From a virus, in IMG/VR virus record IMGVR_UViG_3300020053_000022, positions 1-41,504 of that record: 41,504 nt of DNA, one strand, 5' to 3'. The notes beneath the pieces are model-generated. The model was given only the letters and a program-made list of their open reading frames with translations. It made no database searches and had not been told where the DNA came from. Positions 7,419-21,490 of the stretch are shown piece by piece; position 1 is the first letter of the stretch, and every line of letters starts with the position of its first letter. The translations under genes and the position numbers were made by a program.

Positions 7419-8108
7419 TAACTTAGGAAACAATGCATCTGCACAAAACTCGTCAACATCAGATTCAGACAGCCCTAATGACTTCATTACACGTGGAGTA
7501 TGTGGATTTTGTTGCTGGTTATGACAGTAGTAATTCTGTGCTCCAGCAGTAAGGTCAGATGATGCATTACCTGTATACTCAGGAACACTTTGAAACCATA
7601 CTTTTAAATTTTCAATAGCTAAATCGCAAATTGCAGTTGCTTCTTCTTCACTGCTAACATTCCCTGCGGCAATCATACCCGGGCTAAAGATGTTAGTTGC
7701 CCATTCAGGTAGTTCTCTTTTCTTACTTGGAATAAATTCTGCTACAGCATCTTGATACCATTCACATAAAGGGTGGTCTTCTCCTCCACTACTTGCACTA
7801 AAGTCGTGAAAGGCACCTGTCATTTTGTTCTTACCTGCAATAACATCAAACCCGTAAATAGGTGCATCGTTAGTTAGTGTTGGAAAACAGCATACATGCA
7901 TCATCCATAGTCCTTTAGACTCACGTACATCAACTACATCAATATGAGCTCTGCGTACATGCGGATTTGCCCAAACTTTATTAAGCCATCCATTTTCTGG
8001 TTGATTAAATTTATTAAGAGTTTTTTCTTCTTTCTCAATTGCAAACTCATCAAAGATTTCAATAATGCGATCTTGTGTGTTGATTAGTTTATTCCATATT
8101 ACGCTCAT
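7413..8108 (-). CDS. Ferredoxin-dependent bilin reductase (PebS/PcyX-like)
   Basis: 231 aa, matching the roughly 230-250 aa of the HY2/PcyA/PebS family that reduces biliverdin using ferredoxin. The core WMMHVCCFPTLTNDAPIYGF, then DVIAGKNKMTGAFHDFS, corresponds to the family's active-site sheet, with the catalytic Asp in GFDVIAG. Phage members include PebS (cyanophage) and PcyX (oceanic phage metagenomes, paired with heme oxygenase). Given the non-cyanobacterial context I favour a PcyX-like enzyme, but the product (phycoerythrobilin or other) cannot be read from sequence alone. The ATG overlaps the halogenase stop by 4 bp (ATGA), so it is translated from the clpS-HO-halogenase operon. Confidence 0.85.
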   Translation of the reverse strand: MSVIWNKLINTQDRIIEIFDEFAIEKEEKTLNKFNQPENGWLNKVWANPHVRRAHIDVVDVRESKGLWMMHVCCFPTLTNDAPIYGFDVIAGKNKMTGAFHDFSASSGGEDHPLCEWYQDAVAEFIPSKKRELPEWATNIFSPGMIAAGNVSSEEEATAICDLAIENLKVWFQSVPEYTGNASSDLTAGAQNYYCHNQQQNPHTPRVMKSLGLSESDVDEFCADALFPKLG

Positions 8109-9598
8109 CTGTTACTCCACTCTCTATTTGTTATTCCTGGCAATGACTCTTTTAATTCAACCTCATGCATAGCTTTAATTATATCAATTGCGTTTTGTTT
8201 TTCAATTTTTGGTGTCATTGGATTAATGCCTGTAGCATGTAGCCATAACTTCCAGTTTGTTTCTGCAAATATTTCCGTGTTACGTGGAAAGAACTGCGAT
8301 TGGTCTAGTGTTGATGTATATGTTTTTGCATACCCTGTGGCTAAATCTTGTAGCTGGGGTGTTTCTTTAAAGTTTTCGTAAACATGTTTCCAAAACTTAC
8401 CTTGTCTTAGATTATTAAAGTAATGCAATGCTACAAAGTTCATGCTATCTTCGTATACTGTTTCAATATCTTTATTGTAATTATCTACATCATCTTGTGT
8501 GTAGTGTCCTTTTTGTAAACATCTAAGGCCAGTTGCTCCAATGATTAATAATGCAAGACCTGTACTTTCTAGTGGCTCAATAAATCCACTAGCTAATCCT
8601 ACACTAAAACAATTACCTCTCCAGTTCTTTCTATTATACTTAGGTTCAAACGGTACATGATTAAACTTGCCTGTTCGTAGTCTATGTTCTCCCCAATGTT
8701 GTACAAAATGATCTTCAGCTTCTTGTTTAGTTGTTAGGTCACTGTTATAACACAGTCCACTTCCAATCCTGTCTTTAACAGGAGTTTTCCATATCCAACC
8801 TAGGTCAGTTGCTTGTGCAGTAACATAAGGTACTTGAGGTTCATCATCTGTTTCATAATCAATTTGACTTGCAACAGCGGCATTAGTAAAAAGCATATGA
8901 CTTCTATCAACCCAATCTGCACCAGGTAATGCATTTGACAATAATTTTTTAAATCCAGTACAGTCAACAAAGAAGTCAGCAGTAAGCTCTTGACCATCTT
9001 CTAATATAACTTTTTCAACTTGGCATTTATTAATTACAGGTTGACTAATGTGTTTCTTAATGTGTCTTAGTTTAGGATACTTTTTGTTTAGATACTCTGA
9101 TAAAAAGTTTGCAAGTTTAATAGCATCTAAATGATATCCTACATGAGCAGGACCGCCTTTAACACTTGTATTTTCTGGAATAATATTATTCTTAACGCAG
9201 GAGTTGTACCATGAGATATATGTTTCCATATCGGTTTGAGTAGCACCAGCATCAAGGGCTAAATTTACGATATCACCCATGTGTCCATCTTTACTAGTAC
9301 CTACCGGAAAATAAAACGGTTGCCATATATTTGTGTCATCACCTTTCCAGTTAGGAAAGTATGTTCCGCATTTAATAGTTGCATCTGATGCTTTAGTCCA
9401 TAACTCTAACGGAATGCCACAATCTTTTAAGTAATGGTCAAAGCCTAGTATAGTTGCTTCACCTACACCTACTGTTGGAATGTTAGGACTTTCTACAAGG
9501 GTAACAGATACGTTGGGTAAATTATATAAGGCATAAGCGGCTGTCATCCAACCTGCTGTTCCGCCACCAACAATACAAATACTTGATACGTTAGTCAT
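8105..9598 (-). CDS. Flavin-dependent tryptophan halogenase-like enzyme
   Basis: 497 aa, usual size for the family. An N-terminal FAD-binding motif IVGGGTAGWMTA is followed by VGVGEAT; SDATIKCGTYFPNW supplies the catalytic Lys (PrnA K79 equivalent). LGWIWKTP matches the halogenase GWxWxIP signature with Thr replacing Ile, and GFIEPLESTGLAL carries the Glu near the chloride site. Enzymes of this type use FADH2, O2 and halide to make an enzyme-bound haloamine. A cyanophage homolog (VirX1) is known to iodinate varied small substrates. The native substrate here is unknown; its place between heme oxygenase and bilin reductase, with overlaps at both ends, suggests a link to tetrapyrroles. Confidence 0.9.
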   Translation of the reverse strand: MTNVSSICIVGGGTAGWMTAAYALYNLPNVSVTLVESPNIPTVGVGEATILGFDHYLKDCGIPLELWTKASDATIKCGTYFPNWKGDDTNIWQPFYFPVGTSKDGHMGDIVNLALDAGATQTDMETYISWYNSCVKNNIIPENTSVKGGPAHVGYHLDAIKLANFLSEYLNKKYPKLRHIKKHISQPVINKCQVEKVILEDGQELTADFFVDCTGFKKLLSNALPGADWVDRSHMLFTNAAVASQIDYETDDEPQVPYVTAQATDLGWIWKTPVKDRIGSGLCYNSDLTTKQEAEDHFVQHWGEHRLRTGKFNHVPFEPKYNRKNWRGNCFSVGLASGFIEPLESTGLALLIIGATGLRCLQKGHYTQDDVDNYNKDIETVYEDSMNFVALHYFNNLRQGKFWKHVYENFKETPQLQDLATGYAKTYTSTLDQSQFFPRNTEIFAETNWKLWLHATGINPMTPKIEKQNAIDIIKAMHEVELKESLPGITNREWSNR

Positions 9599-17606: not shown

Positions 17607-17635
17607 ATTGTAACGTAATGATAACATTTTGTCAA
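17607..17635 (-). promoter_or_regulatory. Sigma70-type promoter
   Basis: Minus-strand -35 TTGACA (17630-17635), 17-bp spacer, -10 TACAAT (17607-17612), between the tmRNA 3' region and the 150-aa gene. Confidence 0.75.
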
Positions 17636-17663
17636 GAAGTATTTTACCAATATCTATGAAAGT

Positions 17664-18003
17664 GTAACGTTGCTTCTGTTGCCAAGTGCAACGTTACCAA
17701 AACTCCTACGTGCTTATTACTAAGCCGCTAATGCCATTTCTGGCGCTGTATTTGCGTTTGCATTTACAAAGTTTCTTCGCGATAACCGTGCTTAGATCCG
17801 GATAACTCCACTAACTCTATTAACTACCAGTCGATCCTGATCACCCCCATCATAAACACACTGGTTGGACCTGATCCCAACTTCAGTCTTTCGACTTACC
17901 GAGTATGTTTCAACTCTGCCTTTCCCCCTTCAGGCAATGTGTTTATGGTGGAGGTGCCGGGAATCGCACCCGGGTCCTGCATAGCGTTTGAATTGCTTCA
18001 ACG
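17664..18003 (-). ncRNA. ssrA: Circularly permuted (two-piece) tmRNA
   Basis: Gene order on the minus strand is acceptor piece, intervening segment, coding piece. The acceptor piece ends with a T arm (CCGGG TGCGATT CCCGG) and CACCTCC-ACCA (CCA at 17946-17948). The coding piece starts near 17848 with GGGGGTG, which pairs with CACCTCC to form the 7-bp acceptor stem, and goes on as ATCAGGATCGACTGG, like canonical tmRNA 5' ends. The tag frame runs 17761-17720 and would read ANANTAPEMALAA then TAG, with GCA as likely resume codon. TAAACACA (minus strand, 17938-17945) and TGTGTTTA (17853-17860) pair across the intervening segment, extending the acceptor helix. A 10-bp stem (17664-17673 / 17688-17697) closes the 3' end. 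Permuted tmRNAs are known from alphaproteobacteria. End positions are approximate. Confidence 0.9.
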
Positions 18004-18012
18004 TTATGAGTA

Positions 18013-18043
18013 TATTTATACACTCATTATGCGGCTATGTCAA
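18013..18043 (-). promoter_or_regulatory. Overlapping sigma70 and late promoters for tmRNA
   Basis: Minus-strand -35 TTGACA (18038-18043, inside the last codons of the upstream gene), 17-bp spacer, -10 TATAAA (18015-18020), which is also the first six bases of the exact late octamer TATAAATA (18013-18020). Transcription from either would start about 10 bases before the acceptor piece. Confidence 0.8.
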
Positions 18044-20425: not shown

Positions 20426-21490
20426 TTAGCCAGTTGCATATCCATTAGCACCCAATACAGTTTGTGCCCATGGATATTTTGGTAGTCCGGTTCTACTTCC
20501 ATTGGAACCCCAAGCTATTTTAGCACCTCTAATATCAATGTGCGTAAATGAATTGTATATACCAATTGCAGTAAACCCTGCGTTGATTGCTTCTTGTATG
20601 AATTTTTGTCTTTCTGCTGTTGTTAATCCTGTTTGAACAACATCAACAGCATTGCCTAACATGTGTTGACTTTTCTTAGATCCGCCAACTTTTGAATTGT
20701 ATTCCGGACTTCTATATCCGCTAGTAATAGTTAATTGAAATCCCATTGCTTGAGATAATTTTTCTAAGTTGCTTACAACTTGTGGTTTAACTCTGCTGTC
20801 AACGTGTGGTAACCATTTAATATATTGACCATTTTCGTTTGATGGTTGCTTACTTGGAACATCTTCTACTGCCGCCTCAGGTGGAGCAGATGCTACTGCT
20901 GGACTTGATGGTGCAGGTTGTGGACCCGCAGTATCTGTTACACCTGCACTACCGCCGGTAATTACAGGACTCTTATTACCACGTCTAGCAGTTGGGATAC
21001 CACCATCGCCGTATTCTACTGCTTCTGTTGTATCTGGATCAACACCATTATCTCTTTCAATCTTACGACCAATAATAATGTCTGCAGATTCTACTACATC
21101 AAGTGTAACTTTTTCAAAGCCCATTGCCGCGGCAACTAAATTACTTTGTGCGTTAGCTTGTTCTTCTGCTCCTGCTTGTGGATCAGCAATTACATTAGTA
21201 CTGCCTGTGATTATAACTGCTTTATAAGGAGCATCTGTGTCAATGCTATCCCCAAGCCTAGCTGTTAGTATATTGTTAGTAATATCTATAGTTGACCCTG
21301 TTATAATCTTTCCTATGTGTCCGCAATCAGTTTCAACTAGATCACCTAGTCTTGCTGTGGGTACATTGTTAGTAAGAACAGTTGGACTACCTGTAATGAT
21401 AGTGCCGCCGACACCCAAAGGCACAACATGACTAGGATGATAACAAGTCCCGTCTGTTCTGTCTCCAATTTTTGCTACTGGTTGTCCCAT
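20426..21490 (-). CDS. PAAR-repeat spike protein fused to M15 peptidase
   Basis: 354 aa. Residues 1-100 are PAAR: GVGGTIITGSPTVLTNNVPT, ARLGDLVETDCGH and a second similar repeat (STIDITNNILTARLGD), which cap the central spike of contractile tails. A Pro/Ala-rich linker (about 185-215) leads to an M15-type domain: TSGYRSPEYNSKVGGS, SQHMLGNAVDV (His and Asp ligands) and FTHIDIRG (His). This is a D,D-carboxypeptidase/endolysin fold that cleaves peptidoglycan stems. The fusion makes a self-sharpening, wall-cutting tip, doing the job of T4 gp5 lysozyme with gp5.4. TAG|ATG abutment couples it to the upstream gene. Confidence 0.85.
   Translation of the reverse strand: MGQPVAKIGDRTDGTCYHPSHVVPLGVGGTIITGSPTVLTNNVPTARLGDLVETDCGHIGKIITGSTIDITNNILTARLGDSIDTDAPYKAVIITGSTNVIADPQAGAEEQANAQSNLVAAAMGFEKVTLDVVESADIIIGRKIERDNGVDPDTTEAVEYGDGGIPTARRGNKSPVITGGSAGVTDTAGPQPAPSSPAVASAPPEAAVEDVPSKQPSNENGQYIKWLPHVDSRVKPQVVSNLEKLSQAMGFQLTITSGYRSPEYNSKVGGSKKSQHMLGNAVDVVQTGLTTAERQKFIQEAINAGFTAIGIYNSFTHIDIRGAKIAWGSNGSRTGLPKYPWAQTVLGANGYATG

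Follow-up and report, generated by a model that had tools for sequence, protein, structure and literature searches.

Transcripts of permuted tmRNA genes are cut by host tRNA-processing enzymes into two pieces that stay base-paired, and in one permuted tmRNA, from a nominally archaeal MAG, an intact tRNA-Ala is nested in the intervening sequence, as described in the accessible part of PMC11915505. Such genes also occur in phages. The accessible part of the report on the Methylophilales phage Melnitz (PMC9004378) gives 53 suggested two-piece tmRNA structures in phages and places the Melnitz tmRNA just downstream of an early promoter, while SsrA is annotated in the Pelagibacter phage Mosig. Two-piece tmRNA behind an early promoter is thus already known from phages, and the tmRNA described here is a further example, ordinary in itself for marine T4-like phages in view of Melnitz and of the annotated Mosig SsrA.

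In this study we focus on such a gene in a 41,504-nt stretch of viral DNA (IMG/VR record IMGVR_UViG_3300020053_000022), called the window below. We consider it likely that the locus combines a two-piece tmRNA with a folded, five-helix, tRNA-like RNA in the spacer, that it yields three RNAs, and that the spacer is an exchange site.

Results

The split tmRNA gene

The window belongs to a marine T4-like phage, whose ribonucleotide reductase genes share about 70% identity with those of the pelagimyophages Mosig and HTVC008M, and it carries a working-looking two-piece tmRNA gene of alphaproteobacterial type. Elsewhere in the window, positions 8105-9598 (minus strand) encode a tryptophan halogenase family protein (phrog_2928, E 4.6e-101), and positions 20426-21490 (minus strand) encode one protein whose start matches a PAAR-motif family and whose end matches an endolysin/peptidase family.

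A sequence-only reading of this DNA had proposed a permuted, alphaproteobacterial-type tmRNA and had named the Rfam alpha_tmRNA covariance model as the check. This model (RF01849) matches positions 18047-17663 of the minus strand with 80.3 bits (gathering threshold 50), and the tmRNA_permuted model (RF04321) matches 18007-17720 of the same strand with 94.2 bits (gathering threshold 47), so the proposal is borne out by two models above gathering. ARAGORN missed this gene. The parts of the gene are as follows.

17946-18007, minus strand: acceptor piece (T arm, 3' acceptor strand, CCA), from RF04321 (94.2 bits) and RF01849 (80.3 bits)
17849-17945, minus strand: 97-nt intervening segment with UGAU end, from the sequence and comparison with long viral spacers
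17663-17848, minus strand: tag-coding piece, GGGGGTG to the 3' pseudoknot region, from RF01849 and RF04321
17720-17761, minus strand: tag frame ANANTAPEMALAA and stop, from translation and alignment to the model tag start
17664-17697, minus strand: perfect 10-bp 3'-terminal helix around TTGGCAACAGAA, aligned to the 3' end of RF01849

On the minus strand the order is acceptor piece, CCA, 97-nt segment, GGGGGTG, tag and 10-bp 3' helix. The CCA end (17948-17946) and the T arm indeed lie upstream of the GGGGGTG 5' half (17848-17842), as had been read from the letters, and the coordinates, the 97-nt segment and the tag of that reading were all right. The two halves are joined by the 7-bp acceptor stem that it had described; pair 3 of the seven is G-U (G3-U70). 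A G-U third acceptor pair is the usual alanine signal of tmRNA. The tag frame (17761-17720) translates to ANANTAPEMALAA followed by a stop, as previously given, and the tag has a hydrophobic end. The earlier reading further proposed capture from an alphaproteobacterial host, use throughout infection and delivery of tagged proteins to Clp proteases, three points that we treat as hypotheses.

The stacked promoter

Two promoter elements precede the acceptor piece.

18038-18043, minus strand: TTGACA, -35-like element of the stacked promoter, recurring upstream of viral permuted tmRNAs
18013-18020, minus strand: TATAAATA, T4-type late box that is also the -10-like element, recurring upstream of viral permuted tmRNAs

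They are separated by 17 nt on the minus strand (18043-18038 and 18020-18013). TATAAATA is the late promoter box of T4, so that sigma70 and late elements share bases, as the earlier reading had noticed. This pair was passed over by the promoter scanner because the second hexamer lacks a final T. Within the window alone TATAAATA is not enriched, with 4 occurrences found and 5.1 expected, and the weight of this motif at the window rests on comparison between loci.

For this comparison, 210 distinct viral permuted tmRNAs were assembled among the matches listed, mostly by pattern and drawing on two scans of at least 120 loci each; 202 of them had enough upstream sequence. Related phages are not independent and the counts are therefore descriptive: among the matches listed, TATAAATA lies upstream of 104 of the 202, mostly 60-89 nt before CTCCACCA, and in 16 of 1010 control stretches from the same loci. 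The complete stack, TTGAC(A/T)-N14..19-TATAAATA, precedes 65 of the 202, including the window, and is found in 11 of 4200 stretches drawn at random from these loci. Such a promoter would fit both early and late use. A second sigma-70-like promoter, TTGACA-17-TACAAT, lies at 17607-17635 (minus strand), just past the tmRNA and ahead of the gene at 17572-17120.

The ends of the spacer

The ends of the intervening segment pair with each other, as had been claimed, in a stem of 11 bp (UAAACACAUUG/CAGUGUGUUUA) rather than the 8 named before.

17935-17945, minus strand: outer stem of 11 bp, 5' strand, from end pairing
17853-17863, minus strand: outer stem of 11 bp, 3' strand, from end pairing

Long viral spacers, defined as those of at least 70 nt, number 119 distinct sequences among the matches listed. 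An end helix of at least 9 bp is present in 115 of these 119, and in about 2 of 210 spacers when all spacers are shuffled; moreover, 108 of the 119 have TGAT at their 3' end. This terminal UGAU could pair with the ACCA end. Spacers of 10-40 nt are also present among viral permuted tmRNAs, and the Mosig spacer has the same hairpin ends with a short loop. An unannotated permuted tmRNA is also present in Roseobacter phage DSS3P8 (L412:1390-1700); its spacer, about 104 nt in length, has a long outer stem.

A nested RNA and its other contexts

BLAST comparison of the tmRNA region with phage sequences brought up tmRNAs and, through the intervening segment of the window, phage DNA outside tmRNA genes: roseophage DSS3_MAL1 (85.9%, E 3e-9) and KVP40-type Vibrio phages, in which the matching stretches are unannotated and lie within tRNA arrays. 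The earlier reading had not noticed an RNA in this segment. To gather further members, IMG/VR was scanned by pattern, and individual sources were scored with R1, a covariance model made from 24 sequences.

17857-17941, minus strand: nested tRNA-like RNA, model R1, 96 bits, E 6.4e-21, the window being one of the 24 model rows

R1 reached at least 48 bits in 42 of 49 sources searched, and a further 100 sources gave 9 matches of at least 42 bits. The scans and the model together yielded 37 distinct members, namely 32 in the alignment A3 plus L303, L332, L351, L368 and L390. Eight lie inside a permuted tmRNA (the window, L010, L015, L034, L035, L045, L047 and L303) and 29 are free-standing: 17 in fetched stretches with ARAGORN tRNA genes, including KVP40 and DSS3_MAL1, and 12 elsewhere in phages, in fetched stretches where ARAGORN found no tRNA or tmRNA. 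Some of these 12 have phage packaging or lysis genes nearby: L017 (a copy of L016) and L036 are near a terminase large subunit gene, L046 is near an endolysin gene and L030 near a major head protein gene.

R1 had no match in the long-spacer loci L052-L151 and L152-L170 or in the short-spacer loci L171-L290, and thus seems to be one rare insert among long spacers. Among cellular genome contigs the R1 scan returned five loci; L019 is the phage sequence of L015 in a MAG, and L018, L020, L021 and L022 were judged chance matches and dropped. In 299 Pseudomonadota genomes a single weak match was found (L291, 30.8 bits), which was judged by eye to be chance because the stretch looks coding; since few candidates were scored per genome, this absence from cells is a weak negative.

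Two other structured RNAs were seen in these sources: a bacterial class A RNase P RNA (L011:2415-2698, minus strand, 147.4 bits) on a viral contig with 22 tRNA genes, and a partial GOLLD RNA (L033:1-416, 100.1 bits), cut by the locus end, near an R1 copy on a 347-kb viral contig.

Structure and covariation of R1

R1 is composed of five helices in the layout P1-P2-GAAANGC-P3-CGGUA-P4-GAAG-P5 T-arm-P1', with GGAAANGC, CGGTA, GAAG and GG.TCA.GTCC as near-invariant bases. The collecting patterns were built on conserved bases of R1, which makes this base conservation partly circular, an objection that does not apply to the covariation in the helices. In alignment A3, fitted to the R1 model (32 sequences, 23 pairs, 710 pair cells), 96.9% of the pair cells are standard pairs, against 65.8% when shuffled, and 225 cells carry double changes, against 59.9. 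The covariation score is 0.789, and at most 0.116 when the partners are slid. A MAFFT alignment, A2, agrees (97.0% standard pairs, 157 double changes), and RNAalifold, unaided, gives nearly the same structure.

Outside the helices, the strongest covariation is that of the T-loop pair, columns 140/144, which is T..A in 14 of 32 sequences and A..G in 18. In 31 of the 32 this pair tracks the variable base of GAAANGC: G accompanies A..G (18 sequences), and T or C accompanies T..A (13). This suggests an elbow like that of tRNA, with the GAAANGC linker docking into the T-loop. R1 has a T-arm on its closing stem with a pair of the T54-A58 type, of which T..A is the canonical form and A..G the form in the window.

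Comparison of R1 with known RNAs

Searches of Rfam 15 returned nothing but the surrounding tmRNA models, both at the window element (E up to 5) and at 11 R1 loci (E up to 0.5). With its strong covariation, R1 is, as far as sequence can tell, an RNA family absent from Rfam 15.

Like a class II tRNA (RF00005), R1 has a T-arm stacked on the closing stem and an extra arm, and a few members may share the 7-bp acceptor and ACCA of a tRNA. ACCA directly follows the closing stem in 5 of the 37 members (L013, L031, L332, L368 and L390); the insert of the window lacks a CCA, and it has a P1 of 11 bp instead of 7. R1 could on this ground be a degenerate class II tRNA gene recombined into the spacer, a reading that is also favoured by weak R1 scores on some tRNA-Leu genes and by the tRNA-Ala of PMC11915505. 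However, R1 differs from tRNA in having no tRNA-type D arm, and nothing in tRNA corresponds to the long GAAANGC linker that joins P2 to P3. A seven-base anticodon loop was not found in R1: the P3 loop is 8 nt in the window and shorter in others (about 3 to 8 nt), with no constant anticodon. Neither RF00005 nor ARAGORN found a tRNA at 17857-17941, and ARAGORN found none in any of the 210 viral spacers among the matches listed. Moreover, R1 has near-invariant bases of its own, which speaks for a separate family, and we regard a degenerate tRNA as improbable.

The tRNA neighbourhood also raises the possibility of an unrecognised self-cleaving ribozyme that would aid processing of the tmRNA precursor and of tRNA arrays. 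R1 sits between pieces that need to be separated and beside tRNAs, and its junction bases are near-invariant; theta ribozymes of gut phages, described in the accessible part of PMC10879173, are likewise small RNAs beside phage tRNA genes. Theta ribozymes, however, form an HDV-like nested double pseudoknot, whereas R1 is a plain five-helix junction without a match to any Rfam ribozyme family, theta/HDV and twister-sister included. Furthermore, no conserved base outside P1 is seen by eye at the expected processing cut, and for 12 of the 37 members ARAGORN finds no tRNA or tmRNA in the fetched stretch. We give the ribozyme a very low probability.

R1 also resembles rnaC and rnaD of T4, annotated as small stable RNAs in the phage tRNA cluster. 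R1 matched neither of them; rnaD has a similar GGTAAGTC string, yet its best overlapping score was 12.2 bits (E 2.9), and this identity was rejected. Bacterial Y RNA was likewise set aside, since a sub-threshold YrlA match occurred only on the tRNA-rich locus L025 and off the element.

Exchange of inserts between related phages

The inserts of the long viral spacers fall into 80 clusters among the 119 of the matches listed. Among the same matches, 89 locus pairs have flanks at least 88% identical. Sixty-four consist of two short-spacer loci, and in 58 of them the spacer is kept (0.81 or more); three combine a long with a short spacer, and 22 have two long ones. Half of the long-long pairs (11 of 22) keep the spacer (0.97-1.00), many being probably the same phage, and the other 11 differ (0.54-0.73). 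Random long spacers give 0.59 ± 0.06, and 10 of the 11 differing pairs are at this chance level, the spacers of L123/L158 being diverged.

Near-identical tmRNAs with unrelated inserts are found in the pairs L034/L061, L010/L129 and L071/L080; R1 is present in L034 and L010, and other inserts in their close relatives L061 and L129. Up to the CCA, L155 and L241 share 99.67% identity over 3009 bases; beyond it they diverge, with spacers of 104 and 34 nt. A relative of the window, L229, matches it in the promoter and the start of the acceptor piece and is 80% identical over 2.3 kb upstream; its spacer is an empty 33-nt hairpin that shares its first ten bases with the window spacer. Flank-matched pairs with unlike inserts indicate that the spacer has been exchanged, and from these sequence comparisons the spacer of phage permuted tmRNAs is an exchangeable cassette.

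As a set, the inner parts of long spacers fold with energies no better than those of control stretches (p 0.34), and the idea that all long spacers are structured was rejected because their energy z-scores equal those of the controls; most other inserts may therefore be unstructured. Among the matches listed, canonical T-arms are present in 3 of 112 other spacers (0.2 expected) and relaxed T-arms in 8 of 112 (3.8 expected). Spacers L065, L153 and L164 contain reading frames of 21-27 codons resembling membrane peptides. In L053, L055, L067, L078, L098, L123 and their relatives, a hairpin loop pairs downstream with compensating changes seen by eye, and these spacers may be a further structured insert family.

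The insert could, then, be a structural placeholder with no role of its own, the spacer needing only to fold compactly so that the tmRNA halves meet. The nearly universal outer stem of long spacers, the free variation of the inserts, the existence of 10-40 nt spacers and the background-level folding energies agree with this. Against it stand the 29 free-standing members of R1, its covarying helices and its near-invariant junction bases, and for R1 we find a mere placeholder rather unlikely.

Discussion

At the sequence level, the analysis shows the tmRNA itself, the nested family with its covariation, its occurrence in other contexts, the exchange of inserts and a promoter that recurs across loci. 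What we infer beyond this is that the transcript is cleaved and that R1 is released and acts in trans. In the reading we favour, tmRNA maturation would set free R1, a tRNA mimic that does not decode. A single transcript would start at the stacked early/late promoter, and host tRNA-processing enzymes would cut it at the CCA end and ahead of GGGG. Pairing in the acceptor stem would keep the acceptor and tag-coding pieces together, and the excised spacer helix would be set free as a folded, tRNA-like RNA with its T-arm stacked on the closing stem. As the cut-out segment would itself be a folded RNA, three RNAs are expected from the locus. R1 may have grown atop an old spacer hairpin, and would act in trans as a non-decoding tRNA mimic. 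That R1 also stands alone in tRNA arrays, in some cases followed by ACCA, suggests tRNA-like handling without decoding.

More tentatively, R1 could belong to an undescribed class of non-decoding tRNA-elbow RNAs in phages. The excised spacer might then serve as an exchangeable cassette for accessory RNAs of this kind, and at times for very small membrane peptides, with expression driven by a combined early and late promoter. These products would be weapons in the phage's contest with host translation or tRNA-directed defences.

No report of the R1 family or of spacer exchange was found in the open part of PubMed Central. Our work extends the phage repertoire by an RNA family that Rfam 15 lacks and that occurs in cultured phages, namely KVP40-type Vibrio phages and DSS3_MAL1. 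It also suggests that the discarded part of a split RNA gene can host other RNAs, as introns host small RNAs, and that a search for phage accessory factors that are rapidly swapped could start at this spacer. Since DSS3P8, grown on Ruegeria pomeroyi DSS-3, has a long-spacer permuted tmRNA, the idea is testable in culture.

Melnitz and Mosig, like the window, have a permuted tmRNA of alphaproteobacterial type in a T4-like marine phage, as far as the accessible part of the Melnitz report covers them. The Mosig spacer, however, is a plain hairpin, whereas that of the window carries an RNA, and the accessible part of PMC9004378 mentions neither a spacer insert nor a late box. The case in PMC11915505 shares with the window an RNA gene nested in the intervening segment. 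In the accessible part of that report the nested gene is an ordinary tRNA and is called unique, whereas the window holds a member of a recurrent, non-tRNA phage family that appears to be exchanged between relatives.
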